From contig CADBXF010000016.1 in NCBI GenBank assembly GCA_902798585.1, positions 62,001 to 126,000 of the forward strand: DNA of 64,000 bases, written 5' to 3'. Below are positions 51,533-60,053 of this stretch, piece after piece. Made by a program: the position numbers and the translations under genes. The stretch's first letter is position 1. Each line of letters opens with the position of its first letter. This stretch comes from an uncultured Lachnospiraceae bacterium. GTDB taxonomy: Bacteria; Bacillota; Clostridia; Lachnospirales; Lachnospiraceae. The notes under the pieces were generated by a model, which had not been told where the DNA came from, did not search any database, and was given only the letters and a program-made list of their open reading frames with translations.

Positions 51533-53026
51533 TCAATCGCAGGATGTCAGCGCTTCCACGCCGGATTCGGCCTGGTCTGCATCGGGATTTTTGTTCGTCA
51601 TCACGACGGCGATCTCCCCGGTCACTGTATTCATCTTCAACATGCACTGCCCGTTCTCTCCCCAGCCCTGCGACACCGCCGTATCATCGCCGCGGCGGAA
51701 CAGGCCGAGCCCTACCCACGAAAAATTCTCTGTCGGCTTGAGCATCTCCCGTGCCGAAACGCTGCTTAGGATTGCGCTTCTGCCGTTTACCGCCTCGATA
51801 AATGCCTCCGCAATTGCCATCAATTCGCCCGGCGTGCTCCACAAGCCCGAAGCTGCAAGGTCCGGAATCTGCGGGTATTTTCCGGGAATCAGGGAACCTT
51901 CGCTGTCGTATCCCGAAGCCATTTTCCGACTCTGTTCCCGAAGTTCAAGATTCCGGAGCGAGGCAAAGAAGGTCTTCCTGAGGCGAAGCGGAGCAAAGAT
52001 AAGGTTTTCGACCGTGTCTTCAAAGCTGCACTGCGTAACCTCCTGAATCAGCAATTGCAGCACACAGTACCCCGCGTCGCTGTATTCAAATTCCGTTCCG
52101 GGCCGTTTTTCCGCGACAGCCCGTCGATTATTGTATGCCGTCCTGCCCTCGAGAACATCAAGCACACTGATTTTCGCGTCGCTGCGACGAAGTCCGTAAA
52201 AGGAATCCTCCCCGTCGACGATTCCCGCGGTATGACTGAGAAGCATCCGTATCGTCGCATCGCTTTCCGTTCCGTCCGCCGCCGACAGCTTCCACTGCCG
52301 AAGATAGTTATTGACCGGGTCGTCAATGCGGAGAAGTCCCTGCTCTTCAAGCTTCATCACGGTCATCGCCGTAATAAACTTGGAGATTGAGCAGGCCGGA
52401 AAAGCAGTATTCCCGTCCACCGAAATCGCATTTTCCTTATCGGCAGCTCCGTCATATTTCAAAATCTCTCTTCCGGCAGCGTCTCTGTAGGCGCAGCTTA
52501 CCCCCGGAAACCGCTCATAAATCTGCCGCTCGGGACTGTCGGAAGCAAGATTCCCGTACTCCTTAAGCGCCAAATATTCCCGCTGGTAGGAACCTCTTTT
52601 TTCCTCGCTCACATCGGCATAGGACTCATGCTTTGCGAACAATCCGATTGCATCCTGCAGCGGAATCCACTCCGGCTGTACGCCGCGGCGCTTTTCCGCT
52701 TCGGTCAGTTTCATCTGCCCTTTTCCTACCGCTTCGCAGACAAAAAAATACCCCGAATAGCGGTATTCCTCGTAATACTCGCACATAAACAGAAACCGTC
52801 GAAGCGGGCGGACGAGGTACCCCGTTTCCTCCTCGACCTCGCGAACCACGCAGTCCTCCGGAGTCTCTCCTTCCTCCAAACCGCCGCCCGGCAAGAGCCA
52901 CCAGCCGGAATTCAGCTCATGCGTAAGAAGAATTTTCCCGTCCTGCACAATGACCGCCCGGCAGCCTTCCCGCGTCTTTGTATATGTTTCAAACCGGTTT
53001 GCACCGAGTATTTCTATGGTTTTCAT
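51533..53026 (-). CDS. Nudix hydrolase fused to a class C beta-lactamase-like serine hydrolase
   Basis: 497 residues in one frame. Residues ~1-150 are a Nudix domain with box GGGLEEGETPEDCVVREVEEETGY at 47-70. Residues ~170-490 are a beta-lactamase/penicillin-binding-protein-like domain with S213-I-S-K216. The usual YxN is Y315-S-D317, and a Gly-Trp-Gly stands near 454-456 where a third KTG/HxG motif is expected. No signal peptide, so the hydrolase half should be cytoplasmic. Its function is unclear: nucleotide clean-up joined to an esterase, peptidase or amidase. Confidence 0.88.
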   Translation of the reverse strand: MKTIEILGANRFETYTKTREGCRAVIVQDGKILLTHELNSGWWLLPGGGLEEGETPEDCVVREVEEETGYLVRPLRRFLFMCEYYEEYRYSGYFFVCEAVGKGQMKLTEAEKRRGVQPEWIPLQDAIGLFAKHESYADVSEEKRGSYQREYLALKEYGNLASDSPERQIYERFPGVSCAYRDAAGREILKYDGAADKENAISVDGNTAFPACSISKFITAMTVMKLEEQGLLRIDDPVNNYLRQWKLSAADGTESDATIRMLLSHTAGIVDGEDSFYGLRRSDAKISVLDVLEGRTAYNNRRAVAEKRPGTEFEYSDAGYCVLQLLIQEVTQCSFEDTVENLIFAPLRLRKTFFASLRNLELREQSRKMASGYDSEGSLIPGKYPQIPDLAASGLWSTPGELMAIAEAFIEAVNGRSAILSSVSAREMLKPTENFSWVGLGLFRRGDDTAVSQGWGENGQCMLKMNTVTGEIAVVMTNKNPDADQAESGVEALTSCD

Positions 53027-53728: not shown

Positions 53729-55777
53729 TTATGCCCGCGACAGCAGCACAACCGTCTCGATATGTCTCGTGTAAGGGAACATATCGACCGGGCGGATGCG
53801 TGTTACGCTCCATCCCTTCTTTACGAAAAGGGCGAGGTCGCGCTGCAGAGTCTCCGGATCGCAGGAGACATAGACAACCTTCGAGGGACGAAGCGTGTCA
53901 ACCGCCGTGATAAACTCCGGCGTACTTCCGGAACGGGGCGGATCCATGATTACCACATCGACCGCCTCCTTTGCCGCGGCAAGCGACAGCATATATCGTC
54001 CGGCATCGTCGTTCACGAAGGAAATGTTCGCGACTCCGTTTCGCTTGGCATTGCTCTGGGCGTCGCGCACCGCATCGCGGTTCAGTTCGACGCCGATGAC
54101 CTCCTTCGCCTTCCCCGCGGCACACATGCCGATGGTTCCGGTACCGCAATAGGCATCGATTACGCGCTCCGTTCCGGTCAGCCCAGCAAAGGACAGCGCC
54201 GTGTCATACAGCATCTGCGTCTGCTCGGAGTTCACCTGGAAGAAGGCCGACGGCGATATGCGGAAGCGCAGTCCGCACAGTACATCCTCGATATATCCGC
54301 GGCCGTACAGAACAATGTTCCGCTCCCCTAAAACCATGCTGGTATCGCGGTCATTGATGTTCAAAACCACCGTGGAAATCTCCGGATGACGCCGAACCAG
54401 CTCCCTCGTAAAATTGTTCTTCGAAGGAAAGACGGGATCCGTAACGACAAGCACGACCATAATCTCGCTTCCGCCCTGCGCAACGCGAATCAGCGCATGC
54501 CGAAGCATTCCGGTCCCCTTGTCCTCGTCGTAAATCCGGATTTTGAATGATTTTGCGAGCTCGCATAGAGTATGCAAAATGGCCGTTGCACTGCGGTTCT
54601 CGATTCCGCAGTCGCGCACCGGCACGATTCGATGACTCTTCTCCTCGTAAATTCCCGTAAAAATATTGCCTTTTTTATCGCGGCCGAAGACCCCGTGCAC
54701 CTTGTTTCGATAGTGTGTCGGGTGTTCTGCCGGCACAATCGGCTCCGGCCTGGCAAAGCGGTCGAGAAGAATCCGAACGGTCTTCTGCTTCTTCGCAAGC
54801 TGCTCCTCATAGGGCACTCCCTGATAGTCGCAGCCCCCGCATTTTTTCGCATACGGACATATCACCGAAGGCTCCTGCCCCGTCTGTTTTCCGGTATCCG
54901 CGGCGGAACGCTTCCCGGTTTCCTCCGGAAACAGGTATTCCGCAACCAGCCGGTCCACTTCATCCGAGTGGTCCGGATTATCGGAGAGCAGTGAGAGAAC
55001 TATCCCGGTCTTCGGGAAAATGTAGCTGCGCTGGCCCCATTTTCCGCTGATTCGGACACCGCCGTAATACGGCCACATGCAATAACCGTAACCGCCCTCG
55101 CGGCACGGCTGCTGCGCGGACGAAGCCATCGCAAGATACTCCGCGGAGACGATGCGTTTGCCCTCAAGCACACCGCCGCTGCACACGAGAAGGCCGATCC
55201 GGCCGAGCTCATGAACCGTAAGCTTCATGCCGGAAGCGCCGTAAAACCAGCCCTTCGGGCACCGCTCGCAGGTCGCGCCGTAGATGTGCAGCGGATGAAG
55301 CAGATTGTCCGTGAGAAACTCCCATACATCGCCGCCGAGGGCCTGTGCAAGCGCTACGCCGACAAGGTATGCGGAAATGTTGCTGTAATTGTAGGTGCGC
55401 TCCGTCCCCACCGGGCAGGACAGCGCAAACGAGAGGTAATCATCCCCCTCCGCACGGAACGGAAAACCGGGAACCGACATACACAAAAGCCGCGCAACGG
55501 TAATCTCTGAAAACGCAGCTTTCTGCTTATCCTCCATCGCATCGACATACTCCTGCGGAAGGTAGGAAAGGATGCCGCGGTTTAAGTCAAACAGCCCGCG
55601 GTCCCACGCGATTCCCACTCCGAGCGAGAGAATTGCCTTCGTCACGGAATAGACCGGGTAGCGCGTCTTCTTCACATCGCCGAAGCGGTTTGTGACGACG
55701 CCGTTCTCGAGCAGCTCAATCCCGTACACCTTCAGCTTCCTCTTCTGTATCTCCCCGCAAAATGCCTCGAAATCCAT
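53729..55777 (-). CDS. Beta-lactamase-like serine hydrolase fused to 23S rRNA m5U methyltransferase (RlmD/RumA-like)
   Basis: 682 residues in one frame. Residues ~1-285 are a class C beta-lactamase-like domain with intact S44-V-T-K47, Y131-S-N133 and K246-W-G248. Residues ~305-682 are a uracil-5 methyltransferase: iron-sulfur cysteines 307, 313, 316 and 390, SAM motif DAYCGTGTIG (541-550), DPPRSG (612-617), nucleophile Cys639 (VSCDP) and Glu674. The N-terminal TRAM domain common in RlmD is absent, its place taken by the hydrolase. No signal peptide. The methyltransferase should modify rRNA uracil; why a serine hydrolase is attached is unknown. It begins 1 nt after the preceding stop. Confidence 0.9.
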   Translation of the reverse strand: MDFEAFCGEIQKRKLKVYGIELLENGVVTNRFGDVKKTRYPVYSVTKAILSLGVGIAWDRGLFDLNRGILSYLPQEYVDAMEDKQKAAFSEITVARLLCMSVPGFPFRAEGDDYLSFALSCPVGTERTYNYSNISAYLVGVALAQALGGDVWEFLTDNLLHPLHIYGATCERCPKGWFYGASGMKLTVHELGRIGLLVCSGGVLEGKRIVSAEYLAMASSAQQPCREGGYGYCMWPYYGGVRISGKWGQRSYIFPKTGIVLSLLSDNPDHSDEVDRLVAEYLFPEETGKRSAADTGKQTGQEPSVICPYAKKCGGCDYQGVPYEEQLAKKQKTVRILLDRFARPEPIVPAEHPTHYRNKVHGVFGRDKKGNIFTGIYEEKSHRIVPVRDCGIENRSATAILHTLCELAKSFKIRIYDEDKGTGMLRHALIRVAQGGSEIMVVLVVTDPVFPSKNNFTRELVRRHPEISTVVLNINDRDTSMVLGERNIVLYGRGYIEDVLCGLRFRISPSAFFQVNSEQTQMLYDTALSFAGLTGTERVIDAYCGTGTIGMCAAGKAKEVIGVELNRDAVRDAQSNAKRNGVANISFVNDDAGRYMLSLAAAKEAVDVVIMDPPRSGSTPEFITAVDTLRPSKVVYVSCDPETLQRDLALFVKKGWSVTRIRPVDMFPYTRHIETVVLLSRA

Positions 55778-55778
55778 A

Positions 55779-56408
55779 TCACTCCTGTTCCTGCGAAGCG
55801 GCGTTGACGACCGTGTTCTTCTCCACGAGAAACGCCCGCACCTTCTCTAAGAGCATCGCGTCCCGAATCAGTTCAAGATCCTCATTCTTCGCAAATTCCT
55901 TCTCATCGGTATAACCGTACGCCTCCAAAAGGTACGGCATAACCTTCTCCATTTCATCGTCGGAAAATGTAATCTTCTCTCTCTGCGCAATCGCGCGAAG
56001 AACCGCGCTCTGGCGCACATCCGCGTCGGAGGTCTCGCGGACTTTCGCACGGAATTCCTCCTCGGTCATGTGATAATTCTGCGCAAGATAATCCGCAAAA
56101 TCCATGTGCAGATACTCGGCTTCCGAAAGGAACGCCTTCATTGCGCTCTCATAAGCCGCGTCCGCCTCCCGCTTTGCGGCGCGGCCGAATTTCGTCCGCG
56201 ACATCACGGCGTCCAAAACCGCCTGCCCGGCATCACGGCCGCCTGCATCCACCGTCAAACCGCGGTACCTGCCGAGCCTTACCACGACATGCCCGTTGGA
56301 AAAATCCCAATATAAAACCCACGCCAGAGCAATCAGCACGATAAGTGCAATCGCTCCGGCGACCAGAATAATCTTCTTTTTTGCCGAACCCGGCTTCTCT
56401 TTCTTCAT
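55779..56408 (-). CDS. Membrane-anchored trigger-factor-like protein
   Basis: 209 residues from the ATG at 56408. A short basic N-terminus, one membrane helix (~13-33), then HVVVRLGRYRGLTV, reminiscent of the LG-Y-G segment of trigger-factor proteins. A helical C-terminus rich in Glu/Lys (~80-205) resembles trigger factor/SurA helices. It may be an extracytoplasmic chaperone lacking a clear peptidyl-prolyl isomerase domain. GAGGAG precedes the start. It is directly upstream of the hydrolase/RlmD fusion. Confidence 0.6.
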   Translation of the reverse strand: MKKEKPGSAKKKIILVAGAIALIVLIALAWVLYWDFSNGHVVVRLGRYRGLTVDAGGRDAGQAVLDAVMSRTKFGRAAKREADAAYESAMKAFLSEAEYLHMDFADYLAQNYHMTEEEFRAKVRETSDADVRQSAVLRAIAQREKITFSDDEMEKVMPYLLEAYGYTDEKEFAKNEDLELIRDAMLLEKVRAFLVEKNTVVNAASQEQE

Positions 56409-56456
56409 GTCGACTCCTCGTCCACTCCCACACATTTTCCCTTGTTTTTCTATGTT

Positions 56457-57383
56457 CTACTCTTGTCGTAAGAGAGTGACTATTGCCTCCTTGGTCGGCG
56501 GCTGCGACCCTTCGGTCATGCATGCTCCGGCGGAGACCGCCATCGCGTAGCGGATGATGTCCCGAAAATGAAGCCCGGAGTCGAGGCCGTACGCAATCGC
56601 CGCCGTCATGGCGTCTCCCGCGCCGACCGGCGACTTGACTTCCACCTTCTTCGAAGGCACATGAACCGTCTCGACACCGTCGCAGAAGACGGCGCCGTCG
56701 GCGCCCAGGGAAACCGCAACGAACTTCGGTCCCTTGGAGAGCAGATCCTCAGCCTTATCCTTTGCCCAGGCAATCATCGCCGCACGGCTCTCGAATTTGC
56801 CGCGAACGCCGTACAGAGCCATCAGTTCCGGCAGATTCGGCTTGATATAATCCGGCGCCGCCTCAAGACCGCGGCGCAGAAGAATGCCGCTTGTGTCGAG
56901 AAAGACACGGCAGTTGCACTGGTGCAGCATCTCCGTCATACGCTTATAGGTATCCTCCGGAACGCCCGCGGGAGCGCTTCCGCTCAGCACAAAGAGCGTG
57001 CCCGATTTGGCATGATACCGGATTCTCTCGAACAAATCGTCAAGCTCCTCCGGCAGAACATGCGGCCCGGGCTCATCAAACTCGGTCATGCCGAATTTGC
57101 TTCGCACCTTGAGGTTGCATCGGGTTTCCCCCTTCACGGGGATGAAATCCGACATAATCATCTGCTGCTTCAGCTGTTCGCGAATGGTCTCGCCCATGCT
57201 TCCGCCGATCAGACCGCACGCCATCGTGGGCTTGTTGAGCACACGAAGGGTTTTGGCGACATTGATTCCCTTGCCGCCCGCATCGATTCTTATGTTTTTC
57301 AGGCGATTGACGCCGCCGACCACAAAGTCATCCACCTCTGCCGTCTTGTCGATGGCCGGGTTCATCGTTACCGTGACAATCAT
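56457..57383 (-). CDS. PfkB-family sugar-phosphate kinase (1-phosphofructokinase-like)
   Basis: 308 residues. The N-terminal VTMNPAIDKTAEVDDFVVGGVNRL and DAGGKGINVAK are typical of FruK/LacC. The late SPVGAGDAMTAAIAYGL holds the catalytic Asp and anion hole. No PTS gene lies next to it, so fructose 1-phosphate versus tagatose 6-phosphate cannot be settled. Its ATG overlaps the preceding phospholipase-like stop by 1 nt. Confidence 0.9.
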   Translation of the reverse strand: MIVTVTMNPAIDKTAEVDDFVVGGVNRLKNIRIDAGGKGINVAKTLRVLNKPTMACGLIGGSMGETIREQLKQQMIMSDFIPVKGETRCNLKVRSKFGMTEFDEPGPHVLPEELDDLFERIRYHAKSGTLFVLSGSAPAGVPEDTYKRMTEMLHQCNCRVFLDTSGILLRRGLEAAPDYIKPNLPELMALYGVRGKFESRAAMIAWAKDKAEDLLSKGPKFVAVSLGADGAVFCDGVETVHVPSKKVEVKSPVGAGDAMTAAIAYGLDSGLHFRDIIRYAMAVSAGACMTEGSQPPTKEAIVTLLRQE

Positions 57384-58307: not shown

Positions 58308-60053
58308 TCAACAATCGCCGACTGTCAGGGAGTTCAGATACGCCGCGACGAAAACTGCGGGAGAATTCCAGTAGATTGCGATTTCATTGGTGTCTGCAGA
58401 GTCTGTGACATCAAGGAAGCACTTCGCTGCGGGAACCCCGGCAAGCCGCTCCTTCACCCAAGGATAATTGTTTCTGTTGTTCGGGCCTCCCGAGATCAGG
58501 CCGGGCACCGGAGCCTCGATTCCGTCCGCAGCCGAAGGTCTGTGGTGCGGGAACATAATCTGCCGCTCACCGTATCCCGTGATAAAGGAGAGATCCATCG
58601 CGTTTCGTCCGAGCGCGTAATCGAGCTGTCCGATTGCCCCGCAAAGCATGTCCTCTCTTCCGGTCAGAAGGGTGTTCATAATCATCGCCATCGCATTGCC
58701 CATGCTCGTGAGAATGCTTCCCCACTCGTATCTGGTCGCGGGAATTGCCGTGCCGTAGCCGGACGCCTTCACCGTGAGAAGCGCCCACTCGCTGCGGCGC
58801 AAAAACGCCTCCTTCAGATCGTCGTACAGGACCGCTCCGGCAGCCTCCTTGAGATCAAACAGACAGCACAGCGCACCGAGGCCGCTGACATCCGTCCACC
58901 CGAACTGCGTGAGCTTCCTCCCCTCGCGGCAGAAGCCTTCCGCCGCCTCGCGGTACATCGTCTCACCGGTGGCCGCAAAGAGTTCGCACGCCGCCCAGAA
59001 ACGCTCGTCGCGGTCGCTTCCGTCCCCGTACCAGCCGGTCATCAACCCCATCGGATTGCGGTACGGGCGATTGTCCGCATGCTCCGCAAGCCACTGCCAG
59101 CCGCGTTTTGCCGCCGCAAGACAATCATCGGCAAACGCCGCATCATACGGACGGTAGACGCGCGCCGCCAGAGCAAGCGCCGCAACGGCATCTCCGGTCG
59201 CACAGCGCGAAATCGGCGACAGATACTCCGGCATCTCGTCCTCCTCGGGCATGATGAACCCCGCGAATCGCTCGGTCGTCAGTTTGTGATAGAAAGCGCC
59301 GTCCGACCGCTGCATTTGAAGAATCCATGCAAGCTCAAAGCGGGCCTCATTCAAAATGTCCGGGATTCCGTTTCCGCTCTCGGGAATACCGAGCTCATCC
59401 CCGCATCCCTCCGGGAACAGCTTCCATGCGTACAGCAAATGCCCCACCGTCACCGCGCCGGGTCCGACATATTTTCCGAAATCTCCGGCATCATGCCAGC
59501 CGCCGGCAATTCTCCGCGGCTTCGGCGCCTCGCCGAGAGGCTCCTCAAGCGGCGGCAAATCCTTCGGGAACCACGGCGGAAGCGGACGATCCTTAGGAAG
59601 CGGAGGCTCCGGCCTGCGCCATTCCTCAACCTCCTTCGTGTGGCACGCCGGATGACAGTACACCCCGGCATGCTCCTCCTTAAGCTCGTCGCATCTCTGG
59701 TAGTAGAGCCCCTTGATCAATGCGTTCGTCACTTCTCTCCAGGGCCTTTCTGCAACCGTGAAACTGCGGCTTTCACCGGCGCCTGCAAGCGTGTAGCGCC
59801 CCGGAGCCAGCTCTCCGAGCGAAAGAAGTGCGACCGTATCTCCGGACGCAGCGTCCTCCTTCGGCAGGACATCGGAAAATGCCTTCACCGTTCCGCCGTC
59901 CTCCGCCGTCAGAACATAGTCTCCGGCTTTCGTCACGGCCACCTCCTTCGGAAGCTTCGGCGCATACCCGAGCTGGTTTATACGAATACCGGGCAATGCC
60001 TCCCCTTCGTTCGGATCCTGCCACAAAAGCGGCTTCTTCATATCTTCGTTCAT
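58308..60053 (-). CDS. Cytoplasmic glycoside hydrolase family 9 (endo- or exo-glucanase-like)
   Basis: 581 residues. An N-terminal Ig-like domain (~20-100; IRINQLGYAPKLPKEVAV is the CelD_N signature) precedes the (alpha/alpha)6 catalytic domain. GGWHDAGDFGKYV holds catalytic Asp188 and Asp191, FPHHRPS the conserved histidine region, and SADTNEIAIYWNSP the acid Glu. No signal peptide is present, so it probably cleaves imported oligosaccharides. A Pro/Lys/Glu-rich stretch at ~148-180 interrupts the start of the barrel. An Fe-alcohol dehydrogenase gene lies upstream on the same strand. Confidence 0.92.
   Translation of the reverse strand: MNEDMKKPLLWQDPNEGEALPGIRINQLGYAPKLPKEVAVTKAGDYVLTAEDGGTVKAFSDVLPKEDAASGDTVALLSLGELAPGRYTLAGAGESRSFTVAERPWREVTNALIKGLYYQRCDELKEEHAGVYCHPACHTKEVEEWRRPEPPLPKDRPLPPWFPKDLPPLEEPLGEAPKPRRIAGGWHDAGDFGKYVGPGAVTVGHLLYAWKLFPEGCGDELGIPESGNGIPDILNEARFELAWILQMQRSDGAFYHKLTTERFAGFIMPEEDEMPEYLSPISRCATGDAVAALALAARVYRPYDAAFADDCLAAAKRGWQWLAEHADNRPYRNPMGLMTGWYGDGSDRDERFWAACELFAATGETMYREAAEGFCREGRKLTQFGWTDVSGLGALCCLFDLKEAAGAVLYDDLKEAFLRRSEWALLTVKASGYGTAIPATRYEWGSILTSMGNAMAMIMNTLLTGREDMLCGAIGQLDYALGRNAMDLSFITGYGERQIMFPHHRPSAADGIEAPVPGLISGGPNNRNNYPWVKERLAGVPAAKCFLDVTDSADTNEIAIYWNSPAVFVAAYLNSLTVGDC

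Follow-up and report, generated by a model that had tools for sequence, protein, structure and literature searches.

An S12-family serine hydrolase and an RlmD-family RNA m5U methyltransferase are joined in one protein encoded in a 64,000-nucleotide stretch of DNA from an uncultured Lachnospiraceae bacterium (the window), and the same fusion is conserved in 11 other genomes. The catalytic residues of both halves are present, unfused relatives of the methyltransferase that lack the TRAM domain just as the fused copy does are common in Lachnospirales, and the hydrolase subfamily is also joined to other partners and shows exceptionally low divergence in three species pairs. On this evidence, we consider it somewhat probable that the protein comprises two independently folded, tethered enzymes and that the hydrolase is a portable passenger domain.

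Results

The fusion is intact and kept across one genus

The fusion ORF (positions 53,729–55,777, minus strand) encodes 682 amino acids plus a stop; its ATG start codon, with AGGAG 4 nt upstream, follows immediately on the stop codon of a trigger-factor-C-like gene. The encoded protein is ordered as the S12 hydrolase (residues 1–282), a linker (283–306) and the RlmD-family methyltransferase (307–682). A sequence-only reading of this DNA had proposed such a fusion, and named a frameshift or assembly error at the junction, or domains always separate in relatives, as what could overturn it. Searching the genus indicated that the two domains are fused in 12 of the 22 genomes, that of the window included, in one open frame with no stop in any of them, the 11 further copies showing 62–67% identity; the G010 copy is cut short by its contig end close to the C-terminus. 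The fusion is therefore real, and these 11 further intact copies rule out a frameshift or assembly artefact as its source.

The same reading had proposed a search for the range of the fusion, and among the sampled Lachnospirales and Bacillota it was found in one genus only. Using a whole-fusion profile against 398 phylum and 392 order genomes, both halves were recovered together only in the window's genome, with few candidates scored per genome at a threshold of 1e-130, so that a very different S12–RlmD fusion could be missed. Among the matches listed for TIGR00479 in 199 Bacillota genomes, one other frame exceeded 620 aa (G484, 835 aa); it was rejected as a second fusion, being upstream sequence read through into a TRAM-bearing RlmD.

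The gene lies in a conserved cluster. The upstream trigger-factor-C-like gene (55,779–56,435, minus; PF05698) is kept in relatives, and a PfkB/1-phosphofructokinase-like gene (56,457–57,383, minus; family read from the sequence, not scanned) is found at the same place in fused and unfused relatives with 67–83% identity. Beside this PfkB-like cluster, the window carries a glycosyl hydrolase family 9 enzyme (58,308–60,053). In a tree of the neighbouring PfkB-like and phospholipase-C-like genes, G008, which carries an unfused methyltransferase, falls within a fused clade, so that G008 has either lost the fusion or had the gene replaced. PADLOC matched the methyltransferase half only, with no match to the hydrolase half, and a defence role was set aside on this ground.

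The N-terminal half is a complete S12-family hydrolase

The hydrolase domain (54,932–55,777, minus) was assigned by Pfam, AF2 modelling and fold matching. PF00144 matched residues 37–269 (E 6e-20, 72 bits against a cut-off of 27), and the domain modelled alone by AF2 adopted a complete fold (pLDDT 96.6, pTM 0.94). Alignment of 33 homologues indicated that S44 and K47 of the SxxK motif (S44-V-T-K47; 55,637–55,648, minus), and Y131 and N133 of the YSN motif (residues 131–133; 55,379–55,387, minus), are invariant. The third, KTG-like motif reads K246-W-G248 here (55,034–55,042, minus); K246 is invariant in the 12 fusions, but close kin carry K/R-x-[G/N/S/K], with positions 247–248 variable, a looser pattern than KWG.

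Of the description 'class C beta-lactamase-like', the complete S12-family hydrolase stands, whereas the class C label is too specific: the nearest structures are Lsa45 and NylB, and the NCBIfam bla_class_C equivalog (cut-off 415 bits) is absent from the best 25 NCBIfam matches of the fusion, the 25th of which scored 22 bits. Both Leptospira Lsa45 (8dc1; an esterase-active penicillin-binding protein; Z 34.1) and the 6-aminohexanoate-dimer hydrolase NylB (Z ~31) share the S12 fold over the whole hydrolase domain, at 1.8–2.4 Å and 19–21% identity, but they are longer proteins whose solved chains carry no methyltransferase fusion. Judged by its residues, the hydrolase half looks catalytically intact, and it would probably act on small esters or amides.

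The methyltransferase lacks a TRAM domain, as do unfused orthologues

The methyltransferase domain (residues 307–682; 53,732–54,859, minus) matched TIGR00479 (rumA) over residues 306–674 with 352.1 bits against a cut-off of 183.55; this match spans model positions 57–432, and the fusion ORF contains no TRAM domain. The stricter RlmD model NF009639 gave 213.6 bits, below its cut-off of 458, and the RlmC equivalog models gave 218.8 bits, well below theirs of 558. As the sequence-only reading had stated for both halves, the motifs are intact: the Fe-S cluster motif C307-x5-CGGC316 (54,830–54,859, minus), invariant in the 12 fusions, with the fourth Fe-S cysteine C390 (54,608–54,610, minus); the SAM-binding motif VIDAYCGTGTIG at residues 539–550 (54,128–54,163, minus); DPPRSG at 612–617 (53,927–53,944, minus); the catalytic S638-C639 (53,861–53,866, minus), invariant and with the nucleophile C639 aligned to C408 of Streptococcus pneumoniae RlmCD; and the general base E674 (53,756–53,758, minus), equivalent to E443 of RlmCD.

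RlmCD (SP_1029; 5xj1, 5zq0) was the best match of this half in both fold and sequence, and shares with it the catalytic cysteine and the general-base glutamate. RlmCD has a TRAM domain and no Fe-S cysteines (PMC5614603), and carries no hydrolase, whereas the fused copy has the Fe-S cysteines and lacks TRAM. Three residues with a part in the U747 activity of RlmCD, F145, Q162 and N249 (PMC6235398), are not kept in the fused copy, which has I, E and S instead. Besides the fused copy, the genome encodes two further RlmD paralogues, both with TRAM-like N-termini, and one of them (L002), which keeps TRAM, scores higher against RlmCD than the fused copy does. Because L002 is closer to RlmCD and the U747 residues are not kept, positions 747 and 1939 are unproven as targets of the fused copy. 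Among known relatives, E. coli RlmC (RumB) is a TRAM-less m5U methyltransferase (PMC5614603), in this respect like the fused copy but without a hydrolase. The YfjO-like paralogues of Bacillus and Acholeplasma are extra RlmD-family copies of unknown function, some of them TRAM-less (PMC7226160); that paper mentions no hydrolase fusion, and the likeness to the fused copy lies in this description.

It had been proposed that the hydrolase replaces the TRAM domain. This was not borne out: unfused orthologues in G008, G018 and other Lachnospirales are TRAM-less too, and hence TRAM was not replaced. The unfused methyltransferase of G008 lies at the same syntenic place and starts MATIGKCPYSNRCGGC, and that of G018 is cut by a contig end. 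Across Lachnospirales, unfused TRAM-less members of the fused-type subgroup occur commonly, and some of them have long basic tails at the N-terminus. In two genomes (G001 and G013), the same site is occupied by an RlmD copy that does bear TRAM. One further TRAM-less RlmD (L092:712-2970) begins with ~260 residues of Lys/Gly/Glu-rich repeats.

The linker (residues 283–306; 54,860–54,931, minus) is of low complexity and predicted to be disordered, with pLDDT below 50 at residues 284–305 in the model of the full fusion; that model had a pTM of 0.45, and interdomain placement was therefore not interpreted. Comparison of the 12 fusions indicated that linker length and sequence differ widely. Within the linker, a possible internal GTG start at codon 305 (54,863–54,865, minus), with AGGAG upstream, is present in the window only; the 11 other fusions do not conserve it.

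The hydrolase subfamily has several partners and diverse neighbours

A search of 397 family genomes placed the close hydrolase subfamily in roughly ten genera, where most members stand alone at ~290 aa; kin are also fused to NUDIX in G007 (L041), to HAD-NUDIX in G110 (L057) and to GNAT in G018 (L043). The fused hydrolases cluster together in the domain tree (support 77/76), which is compatible with a single fusion event. Plasmids, phages and viral contigs held no close hydrolase relative, only distant S12 proteins of at most ~31% identity, and mobile carriage of the hydrolase was rejected accordingly.

TcdA and MtaB are tRNA t6A enzymes. One standalone hydrolase gene (L040:6474-9872) overlaps the stop of a TcdA-like gene and is followed by an MtaB-like gene, both named from the sequence, not scanned. 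Such genes lie beside this one standalone copy only, and a tRNA-modification neighbourhood was discarded as a candidate; the other standalone copies have mixed neighbourhoods with no RNA-modification neighbours. In G094 (L098:4919-8025), a standalone hydrolase is flanked on one side by a NUDIX-type gene and on the other by a second, different S12-type gene (names again from the sequence, not scanned), an arrangement that echoes the NUDIX/S12 pairing of the window.

There, a NUDIX–S12 fusion gene of a different S12 subfamily (51,533–53,026, minus; assigned by Pfam) is found, which also occurs near the fusion in G012, G016 and G005. Its protein has 82–85% identity to the copies in these three genomes, the backbone genes being more diverged, and its dS of 0.5–0.9, against 1.0 to saturated for backbone genes, suggests that this NUDIX–S12 fusion has also been horizontally exchanged.

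The hydrolase half diverges less than the other genes compared in three species pairs

Synonymous divergence was compared between the hydrolase half and other genes. The hydrolase dS was 0.03 in G009/G015, against 0.22–0.46 in seven other genes; 0.19 in G020/G011, against 0.60–2.11 in four other genes; and 0.45 in G016/G021, against 1.0–1.85 in seven other genes; in each of the three pairs, every other gene in the comparison gave a higher value. Two control pairs showed no such dip. Supporting this, the identity peak was located over the hydrolase half, being confined in one pair to the second part of that half. The hydrolase half thus appears to have passed between species separately from the remainder of the gene, presumably by recombination, with the reservation that the genus genomes are drafts whose provenance is not stated; some may be metagenome-assembled, and chimeric assembly could mimic half-gene exchange. 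In unsaturated pairs, dN/dS reached ~0.4 for the hydrolase and was 0.05–0.16 for the methyltransferase, which indicates purifying selection on each half, less strict on the hydrolase.

Discussion

In the explanation that we favour, two separately folded enzymes are tethered and the hydrolase is the movable part. The C-terminal part would be a TRAM-less RlmD-family RNA m5U methyltransferase, the third paralogue in its genome, and the N-terminal part a cytoplasmic S12 serine hydrolase, complete in itself, in which Ser44, Lys47 and Tyr131 would serve to form an acyl-enzyme. The hydrolase would come from a portable subfamily whose members occur alone or joined to NUDIX, HAD-NUDIX and GNAT enzymes, and would have been placed, most likely once, ahead of a methyltransferase gene that already lacked TRAM and lay in a conserved cluster; interspecies recombination may later have exchanged the hydrolase, with ends close to the start codon and to the linker. 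The main gain from the fusion would then be co-expression rather than joint chemistry. Against this explanation, two deep clades within the genus have retained the fusion, so that the activities could be coupled, and a single fusion origin is moderately supported (77/76), the methyltransferase tree being unresolved. More tentatively, the S12 enzyme could spread by half-gene recombination among Lachnospiraceae and be maintained through in-frame fusion to host enzymes unrelated to it (RNA methyltransferase, NUDIX, HAD-NUDIX and GNAT), perhaps under selection for detoxification or resistance.

The methyltransferase might instead carry the hydrolase to the nascent 50S, where cleavage of an ester or amide, for example in a ribosome-binding antibiotic, would protect translation. 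The conserved active-site residues fit this idea, the exchange of the hydrolase half resembles that of a resistance-like trait, and m5U747 is close to the telithromycin site (PMC4605293); but the same subfamily is joined to NUDIX, HAD-NUDIX and GNAT enzymes, standalone copies sit in mixed neighbourhoods and PADLOC does not match the hydrolase half, which leaves this explanation unlikely and a ribosome-docked function possible but unsupported. The variety of partners, together with the invariance of the catalytic residues, likewise makes a scaffold for ribosome docking, one of the roles first suggested for the hydrolase, unlikely. About as improbable as a hydrolase addressed to the ribosome is a functional coupling, with the methyltransferase tuned by a hydrolase that senses or processes some metabolite, or with both enzymes working in the same RNA-related pathway. 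The long persistence of the fusion in the genus and the standalone copy between TcdA-like and MtaB-like genes speak for it, but G008 and G018 keep the methyltransferase unfused, the remaining standalone copies lack RNA-modification neighbours and the linker varies in length.

It is similarly doubtful that the fusion yields two proteins in practice, separated by internal initiation at codon 305 or by proteolysis in the linker; the disordered linker and the GTG with its upstream AGGAG in the window would allow this, but the 11 other fusions do not keep that start. Least probable is that the hydrolase serves as a non-catalytic scaffold or as an RNA-binding substitute for TRAM. It does occupy the position that TRAM takes in RlmD and RlmCD; however, orthologues without either TRAM or hydrolase exist, the catalytic residues are invariant and the linker is flexible.

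The searched literature, consisting of open-licence papers, holds no report of an S12–RlmD fusion, and this domain architecture is kept across one Lachnospiraceae genus. The finding also draws notice to the TRAM-less RlmD subgroup that is common in Lachnospirales. If the hydrolase is indeed a passenger domain, the fusion would offer a tractable case of an enzyme spreading via fusion to unrelated genes, and would caution against inferring function from fusion partners (Rosetta-stone inference).
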